A stretch of 35,823 nt of DNA, taken from assembly GCF_900166625.1 (NCBI RefSeq), contig NZ_LT800499.1:687787-723609 (forward strand), read 5' to 3'. Position 1 is the first letter of the stretch, and every line of letters begins with the position of its first letter. The notes below the pieces were generated by a model. It saw only the letters and a list, made by a program, of their open reading frames with translations, had not been told where the DNA came from and ran no database searches. The stretch comes from Halobacillus massiliensis. Its GTDB lineage: Bacteria; Bacillota; Bacilli; Bacillales; Halobacillaceae. Shown in pieces: positions 2,866 through 35,823 of the stretch. The translations under genes were made by a program, and so were the position numbers.

Positions 2866-2955
2866 TGAAAAATAGGGGGGGAGACACGAGGTTCCTAATT
2901 GTGACAAAAATGTGAGCAATCCGTGTCGGACAATTGTATTTTTCCTCACAAAAGA

Positions 2956-2984
2956 TTGACATGAAAACACCCCTATTGTATTCT
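2956..2984 (+). promoter_or_regulatory. Candidate sigma-A promoter of the atp operon
   Basis: A consensus -35 box TTGACA (2956-2961) is followed after 17 bases by TATTCT (2979-2984, 4 of 6 matches to TATAAT). It lies about 75 bases before atpZ and after the vpr terminator, where the operon promoter must be. Assignment is by motif only. Confidence 0.5.
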
Positions 2985-3057
2985 TACATAGTGTGGAATG
3001 ATAAGGTTTTCATACTTACCTGCATCTCTTTTTTAATAATGAAAAGAGGGTGTCGAA

Positions 3058-3276
3058 ATGAAACATTCACAGTCCCCTTTCCAGGCAATGGCTATTGTCA
3101 GTGTCATTTTGTCCCAGTTAGCAGGAGGAGCGATTGGTGGTGTTTTTTTAGGGAAATGGGTTGATAGCCAGTTTTCCACAGCTCCGTTATTTCTAATCAT
3201 CGGACTGTTATTCGGAATCGGCAGCGGTACATACGGAACCATTCATTTAGTTCGATCGATAACGGGAGACGATTAA
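3058..3276 (+). CDS. atpZ: AtpZ/AtpI-family small membrane protein
   Basis: A 72-residue protein with two hydrophobic segments joined by a short basic/glycine turn (roughly residues 10-34 and 42-66), including the GGAIGGVFLGKWVD pattern typical of AtpZ-type proteins encoded ahead of bacterial F-type ATPase operons. AtpZ has been linked to AtpI, c-ring assembly and Mg2+/Ca2+ handling in Bacillus; that role is family knowledge. It is the first gene of the operon, preceded by AAAGAGGGTG, and is followed after one base by atpI. ATG start. Confidence 0.8.
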   Translation: MKHSQSPFQAMAIVSVILSQLAGGAIGGVFLGKWVDSQFSTAPLFLIIGLLFGIGSGTYGTIHLVRSITGDD

Positions 3277-29242: not shown

Positions 29243-30436
29243 ATGGGAGTCGCACTGAGTATTATTTTACTGCTAGGGTTTACGGCTTTTTTCCTTGGCG
29301 TTAAGGAAAAAGTAAGGAACAAGAAGAATGTCGAAAGCATCCCGGTAAGGGTGAATGTTAACGGCATCCGCGGAAAATCGACGGTGACTCGTTTAATCAC
29401 GGGGGTTTTGCAAAAGGCTGGCTACAAGACGATTGGAAAAACAACAGGAACCGATGCTAGAATGCTGTACTGGTTTGACGGCCAGGAAGAGCCGATCAAG
29501 CGAAGGATGGAAGGACCTAACATCGGCGAACAGCGGAAAGTTCTTGAGAAAACAGTACAGCTGAATGCAGATGCACTTGTCAGTGAGTGTATGGCAGTAA
29601 AGCCGGACTACCAGGTTATTTTCCAGGAAGAACTGCTTCAGGCGAATATCGGACTAATCGTCAACGTTCTTGAGGATCATATGGATGTTCTCGGGCCGAC
29701 TCTCGAAGAAGTGGCAGATTCCTTTGGAAACGCGATCCCGTACGATGGTGATTTAATTGTGAATGAAAGCCCTTATGTACCTCGCTTTAGAGAGATTGCG
29801 GCTGAGCGCAATACAAAGGTGCATGTCTGCGATACATCGCTTGTCTCCGAAGACTTTTTAAAGAAATTTGAGTATATGGTTTTTCCGGAAAATGCTGCCC
29901 TTGCTCTAGCTGTCGCTGATGTATTGGGGATTGATCATGAAACAGCTCGTCAAGGAATGCTTGAAGCATGGCCGGATCCAGGAGCGATGCAGATTCTGCC
30001 GATTGGCGATGAAGAGAACCCTACATTTCTAGTTAATGGATTCTCGGCGAACGATCCGACATCCACCTTAAATATTTGGGAGCGAGTTAAGCAGTTAAGT
30101 TATCCGACAGATGAACCTGTTGTGATTATGAACTGCCGCTCGGATCGTGTCGACCGTACGGAACAGTTTGCAAAACAAGTACTGCCGTATCTTCCAGCTG
30201 AGACATTGATTTTAATGGGGGAAACGACTGGGCCAATTGTTGATACTTACAAAAACGGTGCACTGCCAGTGAAGAATCTCCTTGATCTAGAAGGATATGA
30301 AACAGAAGAGATTGTAAGAGTATTAGGTCCATACATGTCTGGAAAAACTATTTATGGAATGGGTAACATTCATGGCGGAGCCGAAGAACTTGTTAAACGA
30401 CTTGAACAGAAAAAAGTAGATAAAGCTACGGCTTAG
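29243..30436 (+). CDS. pgsB: Poly-gamma-glutamate synthase ligase subunit PgsB/CapB, copy 1
   Basis: 397 residues. N-terminal membrane helix (about 3-20), then a Mur-ligase-like amide ligase domain with the ATP loop GIRGKST at 41-47 and ECMAVKPDYQ, EDHMDVLGPT and GNIHGGAEELV motifs. It forms the catalytic core that adds glutamate through gamma-amide bonds, at the inner membrane with PgsC. GGAGG lies seven bases before the ATG. First gene of a four-gene unit that ends at the terminator at 32760. Copy 2 (33142) differs at about 32 of 391 aligned residues by my hand count, and cassette 1 has six extra C-terminal residues. Confidence 0.95.
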   Translation: MGVALSIILLLGFTAFFLGVKEKVRNKKNVESIPVRVNVNGIRGKSTVTRLITGVLQKAGYKTIGKTTGTDARMLYWFDGQEEPIKRRMEGPNIGEQRKVLEKTVQLNADALVSECMAVKPDYQVIFQEELLQANIGLIVNVLEDHMDVLGPTLEEVADSFGNAIPYDGDLIVNESPYVPRFREIAAERNTKVHVCDTSLVSEDFLKKFEYMVFPENAALALAVADVLGIDHETARQGMLEAWPDPGAMQILPIGDEENPTFLVNGFSANDPTSTLNIWERVKQLSYPTDEPVVIMNCRSDRVDRTEQFAKQVLPYLPAETLILMGETTGPIVDTYKNGALPVKNLLDLEGYETEEIVRVLGPYMSGKTIYGMGNIHGGAEELVKRLEQKKVDKATA

Positions 30437-30448
30437 AGAGGATGTACT

Positions 30449-30925
30449 ATGTTTATATTTGACGCTTCAGATGTATATTTAGCTTTAGTGGCTGGAATCG
30501 TTCTCAGCTTGTTCTACACGGAAAAAACAGGCATTTTACCGGCTGGGCTGGTAGTGCCTGGTTATATCGCGATGCTATTTACTTTCCCAGTCAGTATTGC
30601 TGTTGTTTTTATGATTAGTTTCTTAACTTATTTGATTGTGATGAAAGTAATAGCGAGGTTTACGATTCTTTATGGAAGAAGGAAGTTTACTGCAATGTTA
30701 ACGGTCGGTATTACGCTGACTATTATATTCGACATGATCGTTCCTATGTATTCTACACCAGCGATTGTGGAAGGAATGATGGCGATTGGGGTCATTATTC
30801 CAGGCTTAATTGCAAATACGATTCAGAAGCAGGGCGTCCTGCCTACAACGGCAAGCACCTTACTATTAAGTGCTGTAACCTTCGGTGTTGTAACACTTTC
30901 CAGTTTTATAGGAGGAGGAATTTAG
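30449..30925 (+). CDS. pgsC: Poly-gamma-glutamate synthase membrane subunit PgsC/CapC, copy 1
   Basis: 158 residues, with about five membrane helices and the conserved SLFYTEKTGILPAGLVVPGY and IGVIIPGLIANTIQKQG segments. It partners PgsB as the membrane part of the polymerase. AGAGAGGATG precedes the ATG, 12 bases after the pgsB stop. It is followed by GGAGGAGG, which serves the next small gene. Copy 2 differs at eight residues, all conservative. Confidence 0.95.
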   Translation: MFIFDASDVYLALVAGIVLSLFYTEKTGILPAGLVVPGYIAMLFTFPVSIAVVFMISFLTYLIVMKVIARFTILYGRRKFTAMLTVGITLTIIFDMIVPMYSTPAIVEGMMAIGVIIPGLIANTIQKQGVLPTTASTLLLSAVTFGVVTLSSFIGGGI

Positions 30926-30928
30926 AAA

Positions 30929-31102
30929 ATGGAAGCAACTTTAAGTTATAGAAAGAGAAAGAAAGCGGCAAAAAAAGAAGACCAGTTGACGTTCAGCCAG
31001 TGGATGCTCAAAACGATTAAGAAGCATAAAAAAAGGACAACGAAAGATGCCACGATCGGTTTAGGCATTACAATCGTTCTCTTTTTAATCGGTATGGTAT
31101 AG
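30929..31102 (+). CDS. Mini-PgsA: 57-residue membrane-anchor protein in the pgsA slot, copy 1
   Basis: A gene of 57 codons. Layout: a basic cytoplasmic N-terminus (SYRKRKKAAKKEDQ), a conserved core TFSQWMLKTIKKHKKRTTKD (21-40), and a hydrophobic end (41-57, ATIGLGITIVLFLIGMV) at which the protein stops. From memory, the same pattern (LSFHEKLLK...KKKTNKH then a membrane helix) opens PgsA/CapA of B. subtilis and B. anthracis. The remaining roughly 330 extracellular residues of PgsA are missing. GGAGGAGG lies before the ATG at 30929. The parallel gene in cassette 2 has the same core and the same end, which shows selection. A CapE/PgsE-like role is the alternative: it is also a tiny membrane peptide of these operons. 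Confidence 0.85.
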   Translation: MEATLSYRKRKKAAKKEDQLTFSQWMLKTIKKHKKRTTKDATIGLGITIVLFLIGMV

Positions 31103-31106
31103 AAAA

Positions 31107-32759
31107 ATGCTGAAAAAAAACCGTTTCAACATCATCATCATCAGCTTATTTGCCGTCATTTTACTATTGCTGATTATTCAGGATAGTGATGGGACGGACG
31201 AACGTCAGTCAGATGATTTTACCCTGAACGATACTATGCCAGAAGAAGAAATTGGCGCATATGGTGTGACATCAGATAGCGATATTGCAACAGAGGTAGG
31301 AATGAAGGTGTTGGAACAGGGGGGCAATGCCGTTGATGCAGCCGTTGCCGTCAGTTATGTACTAGGTGTAGTCGAGCCTTATGGATCAGGGATTGGCGGG
31401 GGAGGTACAATGCTTATCCACCCTGAAAAAGACAGTGACAAGTCTCCTGTCGTGTATGATTACCGGGAGACAGCGCCCGATTCAGAAAGCGTTCCTGAAA
31501 GTGGAACGGGAGTGCCTGGATTTGTCAAAGGCATGGACCGTGTACATGAAGACTTTGGCTCGATGAAAATGGAACAGCTTATTGAACCAGCGATAAATTC
31601 AGCCAGTAATGGAGCAGCGGTATCCCAAACACTCCACAATCGGTTAAAGGACGCGGAGTACCGCATGCCGAGTTTGGATCATATGTATCCAGACGGTAAG
31701 CCGATTAAAGCCGGAGAGATTCTAACACAGAAGCAGCTGGCAGAAACGCTAAAAGCGATTCAGCAGGACGGACCAAGTGCATTCTATTCTGAAGACATCG
31801 CTGAATCCATTAACGATAAAGAATCAAAAATTGATAAAGATGATCTTGAATCCTACGAAATAGATGTGAAGAAGCCAATCAAGGGTGAGTTTGGCGGATA
31901 TGACGTCTTAGCACCGCCACCGCCATCGGGAGGTATTATGCTGCTTCAAAACCTCGAAATGGCCGAGATGCTGAAGATCGAAGAGGCGAAAGAGAAACCG
32001 ACTGATTTCGCCATGCTGATGGGAATGATTAATCGAGCGAGCTATAAGGACCGCCTGGAAAACGTAGGTGATCCAGAATTTGAGGATGTAGCTGTCAAAA
32101 AAATGCTCTCTGAGGATCACCTTAAGACCATCGCGTCGGATATTGGCGATGGAACTAAGATCTCGGATAAATACCTGACAGAGCTTGATTCCGATGCAGA
32201 CCTCGAAGATCATGAAAATACGACACATTTCGTTGTTGTCGATAAAAACGGTATGATGGTATCGGTGACAAATACGTTAAGTAACTTCTTTGGATCTGGG
32301 GAGTATGTGGATGGATTTTTCCTAAACAACCAGCTGAAAAATTTCAGCAACAACGAAGACTCACCGAATCGTGCGGAACCAGGGAAACGTCCATTCAGTT
32401 ATACGTCACCAACGATCCTTGCCAAGAACGACAACCCTATCATTGGTATCGGAGCCTCTGGCGGGCAAAGGATTACATCCATGGTAGCCCAGCAGCTTGT
32501 CAAAATGATCAAGTTTAATGAACCTGTCCAGTCTTCTGTCGAAGCACCCCGGTCATTCCTTGAGTTTGATAAGAATACACTTCAAGTCGAAGGTAACCAC
32601 GTCTTCTTGGAAGACCCCGAGAAGCGCGGGATCGACGTCAGCTATTCCGACAGTACGACCTACTTTGGAAGTGTCCAAGGTTTGATAATAGATTATGAAA
32701 ATGAAAAAATTTATGGAGCCAGCGACCCAAGACGGAATGGAAGCTGGGATTCTAAATAA
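31107..32759 (+). CDS. ggt: Gamma-glutamyltransferase of the PGA operon (CapD/GGT type), copy 1
   Basis: 550 residues: an N-terminal membrane anchor or signal (about 9-25) then the complete Ntn-hydrolase GGT fold. The self-cleavage nucleophile is Thr372 in HENTTHFVVVD. Also visible: GGNAVDAAVAVSYVLGVVEPYGSGIGGGG in two pieces, APPPPSGG, and the C-terminal small-subunit motif GASGGQRI. Outside the cell it would cleave PGA or, as B. anthracis CapD does, transfer it to peptidoglycan. It starts four bases after the preceding stop with no clear ribosome binding site, so translation is probably coupled. A terminator follows. Confidence 0.93.
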   Translation: MLKKNRFNIIIISLFAVILLLLIIQDSDGTDERQSDDFTLNDTMPEEEIGAYGVTSDSDIATEVGMKVLEQGGNAVDAAVAVSYVLGVVEPYGSGIGGGGTMLIHPEKDSDKSPVVYDYRETAPDSESVPESGTGVPGFVKGMDRVHEDFGSMKMEQLIEPAINSASNGAAVSQTLHNRLKDAEYRMPSLDHMYPDGKPIKAGEILTQKQLAETLKAIQQDGPSAFYSEDIAESINDKESKIDKDDLESYEIDVKKPIKGEFGGYDVLAPPPPSGGIMLLQNLEMAEMLKIEEAKEKPTDFAMLMGMINRASYKDRLENVGDPEFEDVAVKKMLSEDHLKTIASDIGDGTKISDKYLTELDSDADLEDHENTTHFVVVDKNGMMVSVTNTLSNFFGSGEYVDGFFLNNQLKNFSNNEDSPNRAEPGKRPFSYTSPTILAKNDNPIIGIGASGGQRITSMVAQQLVKMIKFNEPVQSSVEAPRSFLEFDKNTLQVEGNHVFLEDPEKRGIDVSYSDSTTYFGSVQGLIIDYENEKIYGASDPRRNGSWDSK

Positions 32760-33141: not shown

Positions 33142-34317
33142 ATGGAAATTGCATTAACCATTATTATACTTCTCGGTTTAGCTGCTTTTTTTCTAGGAGC
33201 AAAGGAAAAGGCGAAAAACAAGAAGAATGTTGAAAGCATCCCGGTACGGGTGAATGTCAACGGCATCCGCGGGAAATCGACGGTAACCCGGTTAATTACG
33301 GGAGTCTTGCAAAAGGCTGGCTATAAAACTGTAGGGAAAACAACGGGAACAGATGCTAGAATGCTGTACTGGTTTGATGGTCAGGAAGAGCCAATCAGGC
33401 GCAGGCTGGAAGGACCTAACATCGGCGAACAGAGAAAGGTTCTTGATAAAACGGTGCAGCTGAACGCTGATGCCCTTGTTAGTGAATGTATGGCGGTTAA
33501 ACCGGATTATCAAATTATATTCCAGGAAGAACTGCTCCAAGCGAACATTGGGCTAATCGTTAACGTCCTTGAGGATCACATGGATGTTCTCGGACCAACT
33601 CTTGAAGAAGTGGCAGATTCCTTTGGAAGCGCGATCCCTTATAACGGAGATCTTATTGTAAATGAAAGCCCCTATGTACCATACTTTAGAGAAATAGCGG
33701 CTGAGCGAAACACGAAGGTCCATGTATGCGATACATCGCTCGTTTCCGAAGAATTTTTGAAAAAGTTCGAGTATATGGTTTTTCCAGAAAATGCTGCTCT
33801 TGCTCTGGCTGTAGCCGATATATTGGAAATTGATCATGAAACAGCCCGTCAAGGAATGCTCGAAGCATGGGCGGATCCTGGGGCCATGCAGATTCTGCCG
33901 ATTGGAGATTATAATAATCCCACTTATTTAGTCAATGGATTCTCTGCGAATGATCCGACATCCACATTAAACATTTGGGAACGTGTCAAGCAGTTGAGTT
34001 ACCCGACTGAAAACCCAGTGGTGATTATGAACTGCCGCTCGGATCGTGTCGATCGTACGGAACAGTTTGCCAACCAGGTACTTCCACACCTGCCTGCAGA
34101 AACTCTAATATTAATGGGAGAGACGACATCACCTATTGTTAATGCCTATAAGAATGGAGCTTTGCCAGTAAAAAACCTGCTCGATTTAGAAGGATACGAA
34201 ACAGAGGAAATTGTCAGAGTCTTAGGGCCGTATATGGCCGGAAAAACAATTTATGGGATGGGTAACATTCATGGCGGAGCGGAAGAACTTGTTAAACGGC
34301 TGGAACAAAAAAAATAG
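33142..34317 (+). CDS. pgsB: Poly-gamma-glutamate synthase ligase subunit PgsB/CapB, copy 2
   Basis: 391 residues with the same layout as copy 1: membrane helix (3-20), ATP loop GIRGKST at 41-47, and the Mur-ligase-like body. All motifs are intact, so it should be active. Differences from copy 1 cluster in the first 25 residues and in short surface patches (for example NPTYLV near residue 254 and the ENPVVIM region). GGAGGG lies before the ATG. The gap to pgsC is 30 bases, longer than in cassette 1. Confidence 0.95.
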   Translation: MEIALTIIILLGLAAFFLGAKEKAKNKKNVESIPVRVNVNGIRGKSTVTRLITGVLQKAGYKTVGKTTGTDARMLYWFDGQEEPIRRRLEGPNIGEQRKVLDKTVQLNADALVSECMAVKPDYQIIFQEELLQANIGLIVNVLEDHMDVLGPTLEEVADSFGSAIPYNGDLIVNESPYVPYFREIAAERNTKVHVCDTSLVSEEFLKKFEYMVFPENAALALAVADILEIDHETARQGMLEAWADPGAMQILPIGDYNNPTYLVNGFSANDPTSTLNIWERVKQLSYPTENPVVIMNCRSDRVDRTEQFANQVLPHLPAETLILMGETTSPIVNAYKNGALPVKNLLDLEGYETEEIVRVLGPYMAGKTIYGMGNIHGGAEELVKRLEQKK

Positions 34318-34347: not shown

Positions 34348-34824
34348 ATGTTTATATTTGAAGCTTCAGATGTATATTTAGCTTTAGTGGCTGGGATCGT
34401 TCTCAGCTTGTTCTATACAGAAAAAACAGGAATTTTACCGGCAGGGCTGGTAGTTCCAGGTTATATCGCGATGCTGTTTACATTTCCTGTCAGTATAGCC
34501 GTGGTCTTTATGATTAGTTTTCTAACCTATTTGATTGTAATGAAAGTAATTGCCAAGTTTACGATCCTTTATGGGAGAAGGAAGTTTACTGCCATGTTAA
34601 CAGTTGGTATTACGCTGACTATCGTATTTGACCTTGTCGTCCCAATGTATTCTACACCGGCGATTGTGGAAGGAATGATGGCGATTGGGGTCATTATTCC
34701 AGGTTTAATTGCTAATACGATTCAGAAACAAGGAGTACTCCCAACAACGGCAAGTACACTGCTTTTAAGTGCGGTTACTTTCGGTATTGTGACATTATCA
34801 ACCTATATTGGAGGAGGAATTTAA
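34348..34824 (+). CDS. pgsC: Poly-gamma-glutamate synthase membrane subunit PgsC/CapC, copy 2
   Basis: 158 residues, full length, with the same membrane topology and motifs as copy 1. Eight substitutions: D5E, R/K and six I/V, M/L, V/I, S/T or F/Y changes. TAGGGAGGAG lies before the ATG. Stop and next start are one base apart (TAACATG), so the mini-PgsA gene is coupled to it. Confidence 0.95.
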   Translation: MFIFEASDVYLALVAGIVLSLFYTEKTGILPAGLVVPGYIAMLFTFPVSIAVVFMISFLTYLIVMKVIAKFTILYGRRKFTAMLTVGITLTIVFDLVVPMYSTPAIVEGMMAIGVIIPGLIANTIQKQGVLPTTASTLLLSAVTFGIVTLSTYIGGGI

Positions 34825-34825
34825 C

Positions 34826-34996
34826 ATGGAAGCTATTTTAAATAATAAAAAAAAGAGAGCAGTAAAAAAAGAATATAAACTGTCCCTTAGTCAGTGGATG
34901 CTTAAAACAATAAAGGATCATAAAAAAAGGACAACAAAAGATGCCGCGATCGGTTTATCAGTTACAGCTGTCCTCTTTTTAATTGGTATTATATAG
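34826..34996 (+). CDS. Mini-PgsA: 56-residue membrane-anchor protein, copy 2
   Basis: 56 residues with the same structure as copy 1: variable basic N-terminus (NNKKKRAVKKEYK), core SQWMLKTIKDHKKRTTKD and terminal hydrophobic segment AIGLSVTAVLFLIGII, stopping at the equivalent position. GGAGGAGG (within the end of pgsC) lies before ATG 34826; the frame is open upstream to 34808 but that ATG overlaps the ribosome binding site. As in copy 1 no extracellular PgsA domain follows; the next gene is the glutamyltransferase. Confidence 0.85.
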   Translation: MEAILNNKKKRAVKKEYKLSLSQWMLKTIKDHKKRTTKDAAIGLSVTAVLFLIGII

Positions 34997-34999
34997 GAT

Positions 35000-35823
35000 A
35001 TGTTAAAGAGAAAACATTTTTATTCCATTATCCTCTGTGTCTTTGCTGTTATTTTGCTGTATTTTTTTGTGCAAAACAGCAATGGGAGGGATGAACAACA
35101 ATCTGAGGAATTTACTTTGAATGATAGAATGCCTGAAAAAGATGAATTATATGGAGTATCTTCCGATAGTGAAATTGCGACAGAGGTAGGAATGAAGGTT
35201 CTGGGCCAGGGGGGCAATGCCGCTGATGCGGCCATAGCTGTAAGCTATGTGCTGGGTGTGGTCGAGCCTTATGGATCAGGAATTGGCGGGGGAGGCACAA
35301 TGCTTATACATCCTGAAAAAGGTAGTGAACAAGCCCCGGTCGTTTATGATTACAGGGAGACAGCCCCCGACTCAGAAAACGTTCCTGAAAGTGGAACAGG
35401 AGTGCCCGGCTTCGTTAAAGGTATGGAACGGGTACACAATGATTTTGGAACGCTGAAAATGGAGAAGCTTATTGAACCCTCGATAAATTTTGCCAGCAAT
35501 GGCGCAGCTGTCTCAAATACTCTTCATAATTATTTGAAAAAGGAGAAGGATCGTATGCCAAAACTGGATCATATGTATCCAGACGGTGATCCGATTGAGG
35601 CAGGGAAAGTCCTTAAACAAAAGCAGCTGGCAGAAACGTTAAAATCGATACAGCAGGATGGCACGAGCGCGTTCTATTCCGGAGACATTGCTGAATCCAT
35701 TAATGATGAAGAATCAAAAATGGATAAAGATGACTTGGAGTCTTACGAAGTAGAAGCCAAAAAGCCGATCAAGAGCAGGTTTGGCGGGTATGATGTCTTT
35801 GCACCGCCCCCGCCATCGGGAGG
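35000..35823 (+). CDS. ggt: Gamma-glutamyltransferase of the PGA operon (CapD/GGT type), copy 2, 5' part
   Basis: 274 N-terminal residues are present; the frame is open to the window end. Membrane anchor (about 8-25), then the GGT large-subunit sequence matching copy 1, with GGNAADAA, VVEPYGSGIGGGG, DYRETAPDSENVPESGTGVP and APPPPSGG. The first 50 residues are more diverged than the rest, and one residue is missing near position 50. The catalytic threonine lies beyond the window. It starts three bases after the mini-PgsA stop, in the same frame as that gene, without its own clear ribosome binding site. Confidence 0.92.
   Translation, partial: MLKRKHFYSIILCVFAVILLYFFVQNSNGRDEQQSEEFTLNDRMPEKDELYGVSSDSEIATEVGMKVLGQGGNAADAAIAVSYVLGVVEPYGSGIGGGGTMLIHPEKGSEQAPVVYDYRETAPDSENVPESGTGVPGFVKGMERVHNDFGTLKMEKLIEPSINFASNGAAVSNTLHNYLKKEKDRMPKLDHMYPDGDPIEAGKVLKQKQLAETLKSIQQDGTSAFYSGDIAESINDEESKMDKDDLESYEVEAKKPIKSRFGGYDVFAPPPPSG

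Follow-up and report, generated by a model that had tools for sequence, protein, structure and literature searches.

Anchor-only PgsA, a recurrent natural variant in polyglutamate operons

What takes the place of PgsA in a polyglutamate (PGA) operon in which a gene of only 57 codons lies between pgsC and ggt? This question is raised by a stretch of 35,823 nucleotides of Halobacillus massiliensis (hereafter the window; host genome of 4.31 Mb in 2 contigs), the final 6.6 kb of which hold two tandem polyglutamate operons, each ordered pgsB-pgsC-small gene-ggt and encoded on the plus strand. In operon 1, pgsB (29243..30436; 397 aa, polyglutamate ligase; TIGR04012, E 5.8e-162) and pgsC (30449..30925; 158 aa; TIGR04011, E 2.5e-43; PF14102, E 5.5e-35) precede the small gene, hereafter anchor-only pgsA copy 1 (30929..31102; 57 aa), and ggt (31107..32759; 550 aa), which encodes a gamma-glutamyltransferase with an N-terminal hydrophobic segment (TIGR00066, E 2.5e-109; PF01019, E 1.3e-117). 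Copy 1 starts with ATG just 3' of a Shine-Dalgarno-like site, AGGAGGAGG (30910..30918), and is tightly packed, the pgsC stop lying 3 nt upstream and ggt 4 nt downstream. Operon 2 comprises pgsB (33142..34317; 391 aa; TIGR04012, E 1.5e-159), pgsC (34348..34824; 158 aa; TIGR04011, E 3.8e-43), anchor-only copy 2 (34826..34996; 56 aa, with ggaggagg upstream), 68% identical to copy 1, and the start only of a ggt that runs off the window (35000..35823; TIGR00066, E 4.5e-53 over the first 274 aa). Both PgsB (538.8 and 530.8 bits in operons 1 and 2; curated TIGR04012 cut-off 222.7) and both PgsC (147.5 and 147.0 bits; curated TIGR04011 cut-off 96.45) passed their thresholds, and among named genomes the nearest matches of the window PgsC were from Halobacillus.

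The copy 1 product is composed of a basic tail, the core LTFSQWMLKTIKKHKKR and a single hydrophobic helix, and then stops. No Pfam or NCBIfam family fits the 57-aa protein, and the PGA_cap domain (PF09587) with its MslH-like catalytic residues is absent from it (no Pfam match; the protein ends after the helix). On a profile built from 41 non-redundant PgsA N-termini (59 before the redundancy filter), copy 1 scored 36.0 bits (E 1.6e-9), copy 2 29.4 bits and all 24 anchor-only proteins between 22.7 and 45.2 bits, whereas the best control scores were 12.1 bits for 2,400 shuffled anchor-only proteins, 11.4 for 81 GGT N-termini, 10.8 for 3,554 other small ORFs of the same loci and 6.3 for 80 PgsB N-termini. 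Comparison of profiles by hhalign gave a probability of 98.0% for the anchor-only family against the PgsA N-terminus (E 1.8e-13 over 40 columns), compared with 0.66% against PgsE, 14% against GGT and 0.64% against PgsB N-termini. Profiles of the anchor-only proteins themselves retrieved PgsA starts. With nine members, a six-frame search of 44 family genomes gave 21 rows at E <=0.1 (10 anchor-only genes, 8 PgsA starts in 385-390-aa frames adjoining pgsC and 3 others), and one of 397 order genomes gave 27 rows at E <=0.01 (10 anchor-only genes, 11 frames of 384-407 aa and 6 others), all 11 of these frames being located directly after pgsC and typed as PgsA. With 24 members, 398 phylum genomes gave 9 rows at E <=0.001, namely the two window genes, the PgsA of a further host operon, operon 3 (1.8e-8), two PgsA (9.1e-9 and 1.7e-8) from genomes that we take to be B. 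subtilis-like, two PgsA-like frames and two new, distant anchor-only genes. Weak profile matches at L030, L033, L074-L077 and L082 were considered as further anchor-only genes and judged unrelated from their ORFs; another, L031 (E 0.0975), is a 23-residue open frame. An earlier note, written from the sequence alone, had described a tiny 57-codon gene between pgsC and ggt, in the pgsA position and devoid of the outer domain, and had pointed to a likeness to PgsA N-termini; both statements held, and the better match to CapE/PgsE that would have refuted it failed to appear. It made no mention of the second tandem operon with copy 2.

How widespread such genes are was assessed in several sets of genomes. 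From a PgsC scan, the best 80 of 221 relatives were kept, all in named genomes; a full pgsA comes next in 59 of these loci and none is present in 21, and in each of these 21 the interval from pgsC to the ggt position holds instead a small ORF (40-70 aa) recognised by the PgsA N-terminus profile. A ggt frame is found downstream in 20/21. The carriers belong to Halobacillus, Evansella, Oceanobacillus, Sporosarcina, Bhargavaea, Peribacillus, Bacillus sp. and Geomicrobium. Of the 11 genomes in the genus sample, 7 have an anchor-only homologue directly after pgsC. The order sample comprises 397 genomes, of which 70 hold a total of 91 PgsC genes that pass the cut-off (one row below it, G049, being excluded); PgsA comes next in 82 cases and an anchor-only gene in nine. 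The anchor profile was significant (E <= 1e-3) in all 82 PgsA and all nine anchor-only proteins of this sample, that is 91/91. As these sets share genomes, the named-locus, genus and order counts are not independent. Most anchor-only genes have a Shine-Dalgarno-like site, they stop right after the helix, and ten Halobacillus and Evansella copies gave a median dN/dS of 0.19 over 34 of 45 pairs, dS being saturated in the other 11. Anchor-only PgsA is a recurrent natural variant, and many of its carriers are salt-loving.

Several loci depart from this layout. In Halobacillus sp. A5, two of the three anchor-only operons have no intact ggt frame (none found at L089, an 86-aa piece at L083); in Bhargavaea cecembensis, pgsC and ggt are separated by two anchor-only genes in tandem (L095:2678-2872 and 2950-3132); in genome G219 (L236:2915-4907; also L066), one copy retains the anchor-only frame and ggt with pgsC gone, the upstream part of the frame resembling a pgsB remnant; and in two small-genome Bacillota (L279, L280), pgsC is followed by a PgsA-like frame of 333-334 aa that includes the anchor.

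A tree of PgsB plus PgsC was built from the 66 operons left of 83 after a redundancy filter, L153 having been excluded earlier for a split pgsB. In this tree, the 18 anchor-only operons form one side of a single branch (support 99/95), among full-PgsA operons. The two further anchor-only proteins from distant Bacillota (77 and 44 aa; 22.4 and 23.8 bits) are encoded at L281:1408-1641 and L282:1519-1653; the former gene is followed by a poly-gamma-glutamate hydrolase (PF05908) in place of ggt, and a similar-looking gene occupies that place at L282. When nine rows including both were added (75 rows, 21 of them anchor-only), the anchor-only state needed two changes and a single anchor-only group was rejected (AU p 0.023), this second origin being less certain because of a joined-long-branch warning and because the group was defined post hoc. 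Loss of the domain and an ancestral small anchor later fused to a domain cannot be distinguished in the tree. Comparison shows that the product of the 57-codon gene is homologous to the PgsA N-terminus, occupies the pgsA position and belongs to an old and selected family without the extracellular PGA_cap domain.

Among the rival explanations, the one that survives best, although we consider it unlikely, is that full-length PgsA from other operons of the cell partners the anchor-only protein and lends it the outer domain in trans (a mixed complex or dosage control). The host genome contains four PgsB genes over cut-off, each in a pgsB-pgsC operon, and three of these four operons cluster on one strand. 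Operon 3, which lies downstream of operons 1 and 2 in the same orientation, is composed of pgsB, pgsC, a full pgsA, ggt and a PgsE-like gene, and operon 4, elsewhere in the genome, of pgsB, pgsC, a full pgsA and ggt. Two pgsA genes of full length are hence linked to a PgsC gene, one of them some 11 kb downstream; a further PF09587 gene is not PgsC-linked and adjoins a gene that we take to be bioY (our own reading of the gene, without a database match). All 7 genus genomes with an anchor-only gene likewise carry at least one full-length PgsC-linked PgsA, and help in trans is therefore possible in the genus, the window organism included. Against this explanation, 9 of 19 genomes with anchor-only operons have PgsC only in these operons, and two distant genomes (G522 and G784) have one PgsC each, plus one non-linked PF09587 protein that scores only 0.8 and 1.5 bits, respectively, on the anchor profile. 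In 7 of the nine genomes, PF09587 genes are present away from pgsC, and none of eight strong stand-alone proteins from these 7 exceeded 8.3 bits on the anchor profile (one received no score), compared with 58.7 and 72.1 bits for the host PgsA of operons 3 and 4; this scoring covers strong matches only, weaker ones existing in four of the seven genomes. Of the 11 genomes examined in total with PgsC only in an anchor-only operon, two, both among the nine and both drafts, have no PGA_cap protein. No PF09587 match was found in the Bhargavaea draft genome. In Sporosarcina sp. E16_8, two weak PF09587 matches were considered as PgsA and rejected, being S-layer 5'-nucleotidases that scored 24.4 and 21.4 bits when fetched, below cut-off; one match in this organism had reached 28.4 bits against a cut-off of 27 in the genome search.

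It is very unlikely that the protein belongs to the small subunits of the CapE/PgsE type and has only its gene position in common with PgsA. In favor of this possibility, such subunits are of similar size, have one hydrophobic helix and belong to PGA operons, and none of the 21 anchor-only operons has a PgsE of its own in the fetched flanks. Against it, the two families are not linked by profile-profile comparison (the 0.66% given above), a PgsE profile, grown from two seeds, gave at most 4.3 bits on the 24 anchor-only proteins, these have no NCBIfam CapE_47_fam or EdmS match at E up to 1, and PgsE has its helix first and then an acidic tail, the reverse of the anchor-only order. The window gene also lies between pgsC and ggt, and not after pgsA or ggt as PgsE/CapE do. 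The terminal 61-aa gene of operon 3 has weak NCBIfam matches to EdmS (E 0.0052) and CapE (E 0.0069), below cut-off. PgsE homologues follow or flank at least 22 of the 59 full operons (the limited flanks make this a minimum), and three PgsE matches occur upstream of anchor-only operons, each directly after a neighboring ggt. As a side observation, loss of the outer PgsA domain may go along with loss of PgsE (0/21 against at least 22/59; L083-L098, L124, L133, L134, L136, L149).

That the gene is a decayed, functionless remnant of pgsA is all but ruled out. In favor of a remnant, the protein is a truncated homologue and the second copy in G219 persists beside ggt with pgsC gone. Against it, the family is spread over many genera, most of its genes have a Shine-Dalgarno-like site and they end right after the helix, it falls in one well-supported PgsBC clade, its dN/dS is low (median 0.19), and it has been duplicated in tandem in Bhargavaea. 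An unrelated small membrane peptide, for example a toxin, with a convergent basic tail and helix can be practically dismissed, its only support being a weak NCBIfam TsaT match (NF047370, 18.4 against a cut-off of 80 bits; a CrcB match, 14.7 of 99, is likewise far below cut-off), while the PgsA N-terminus profile gives far lower scores to composition-matched shuffles and to the 3,554 small ORFs mentioned above, and the operon position is constant.

What, then, is missing from these operons? The operon-3 PgsA matches the NCBIfam family epimerase_MslH (E 5.1e-21, 74.6 of 700 bits) and the solved MslH (E 1.3e-14), a lasso peptide epimerase in which the His88/Asp91 and His295/Asp11 pairs are required for epimerization (PMC10406935). 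PgsA itself has been reported to epimerize L-Glu in the growing PGA chain (Ogasawara 2019, as given in PMC7168211). Placing the MslH catalytic residues on a B. subtilis-like PgsA by motif and spacing, without a structure, we found the full set in 36 of 64 PgsA sequences, operon 4 among them. The His88 position is Asn in 6/64, including operon 3 and its two Halobacillus counterparts (L109, L111), so that the operon-3 pgsA (L005:13834-14991) may also be without epimerase activity despite having the domain; changes at catalytic positions need not mean inactivity, since the His259 position is commonly variable (18/64). Regarding the polymer, D/L ratios of 4/96 (5/95 in the abstract) were reported for pgsBC alone and 75/25 with pgsA (Sawada 2018, PMC6029982), and 11/89 for Oceanobacillus iheyensis pgsBC (PMC6029982). 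Engineered B. subtilis has produced L-PGA (PMC6029982), which is also reported as a secreted product of Natrialba, a halophilic archaeon (PMC4187202). Reports on the role of PgsA in PGA production conflict (PMC6029982, PMC5751247): some work called it essential and later work obtained abundant PGA without it, the ATPase activity of PgsBCA was about 3 times higher than that of PgsBC, and a xylose-inducible pgsBC gave no PGA (all recounted in PMC6029982). In B. subtilis, overexpressed pgsBC yielded 26.0 g/L PGA and pgsBCA 3.0 g/L (PMC6029982); no anchor is hence required at high expression, and PgsA did not raise the yield there.

We consider it likely that the anchor is the core partner of PgsB-PgsC and the outer domain an optional L-to-D epimerase, anchor-only operons making L-polyglutamate, with function, topology and stereochemistry all being inferred. 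The basic tail and the LTF...K..K..KK segment would be cytoplasmic and continue into one membrane helix (orientation from the positive-inside rule), and the anchor would bind or activate the PgsB-PgsC ligase/translocon. The absent domain would be a separable extracellular epimerase converting L-Glu into D-Glu in the growing chain, and this large outer part of PgsA seems optional, as natural operons exist with PgsA cut to its membrane anchor. Since this likely epimerase is absent, operons 1 and 2, and others alike, are predicted to yield L-rich polyglutamate. This last step is made by analogy: it rests on the domain assignment and on another species, with no experiment on these genes. An anchor that holds or activates the machine and an epimerase acting on the chain would account for the retention of the anchor in the natural operons surveyed, even though PgsA can be bypassed by strong overexpression. 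The single-chain fold of the 57-aa protein (helices 2-18 and 22-56; mean pLDDT 73.2, pTM 0.32) is too slight to read contacts from, and there is no guide from a solved PgsBC complex, PDB searches having given no match for PgsC or the anchor-only profile and only a RecA chain for PgsB. A plasmid search with the 57 aa gave no match. A bolder reading, which we would neither favor nor discount, is that throughout Bacillota the third component always present beside PgsB and PgsC is the PgsA anchor and not the capsule-synthesis domain. The outer domain would be an epimerase that is optional and that at least two separate PgsBC lineages lack; the presence of the domain would then predict an L- versus a D-containing polymer, and a cell with several operons, such as the present host, could make chemically different polymers.

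The suggestion of the earlier note that PgsB-PgsC may need only the anchor is strengthened by the presence of the anchor after 91/91 pgsC and by the genomes without other PgsA, in the absence of experimental data. A full-length pgsA in the same operons would have told against it, but operon 1 has none and operon 2 has none in the interval from pgsC to ggt; the genome search that it proposed for a PF09587-type PgsA did find the two PgsC-linked genes of the other operons, which stand as a caveat. For its alternative, export by another protein, the neighboring ORFs of 12 anchor-only loci were listed and no common extra gene was recognised. It had not seen that the absent domain is a likely epimerase, from which a sharper prediction follows. 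The earlier reading is hence supported with the caveat of the other PgsA genes, and the finding widens to a recurrent variant of the known PgsA system. We recognised no description of an anchor-only PgsA in the open-licence literature searched. In a PgsA that lacks the domain in nature and is under selection, two proposed roles come apart, assembly for the anchor and stereochemistry for the outer domain, both of which are testable. Such a PgsA also points to natural, possibly dedicated L-polyglutamate operons, many of them in halophiles.

Among known systems, MslH (PMC10406935) is a relative of the domain absent here, although the residue that it epimerizes is the C-terminal Trp of a peptide precursor and no such anchor is mentioned in the sections bearing on it. 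PgsE/CapE (EdmS) is also a small single-helix protein of PGA operons, but it has no detectable sequence similarity to the anchor-only protein, its layout is reversed and its gene position is another one. With PgsC-linked PgsA/CapA (PF09587), the anchor-only protein shares the position after pgsC, the homologous basic tail, a core of the L-T/S-F-x-x-x-x-L-K-x-x-K-x-x-K-K type and the first helix; it differs in having neither the PGA_cap/calcineurin-like domain nor its catalytic residues, and in its length of 40-77 aa, as against mostly about 380-515. Finally, engineered pgsBC without pgsA (Sawada 2018, PMC6029982) makes L-rich PGA without the PgsA outer domain, as is predicted for the anchor-only operons, but there the anchor is missing too and expression is strongly forced, whereas in nature the anchor has been kept by selection.
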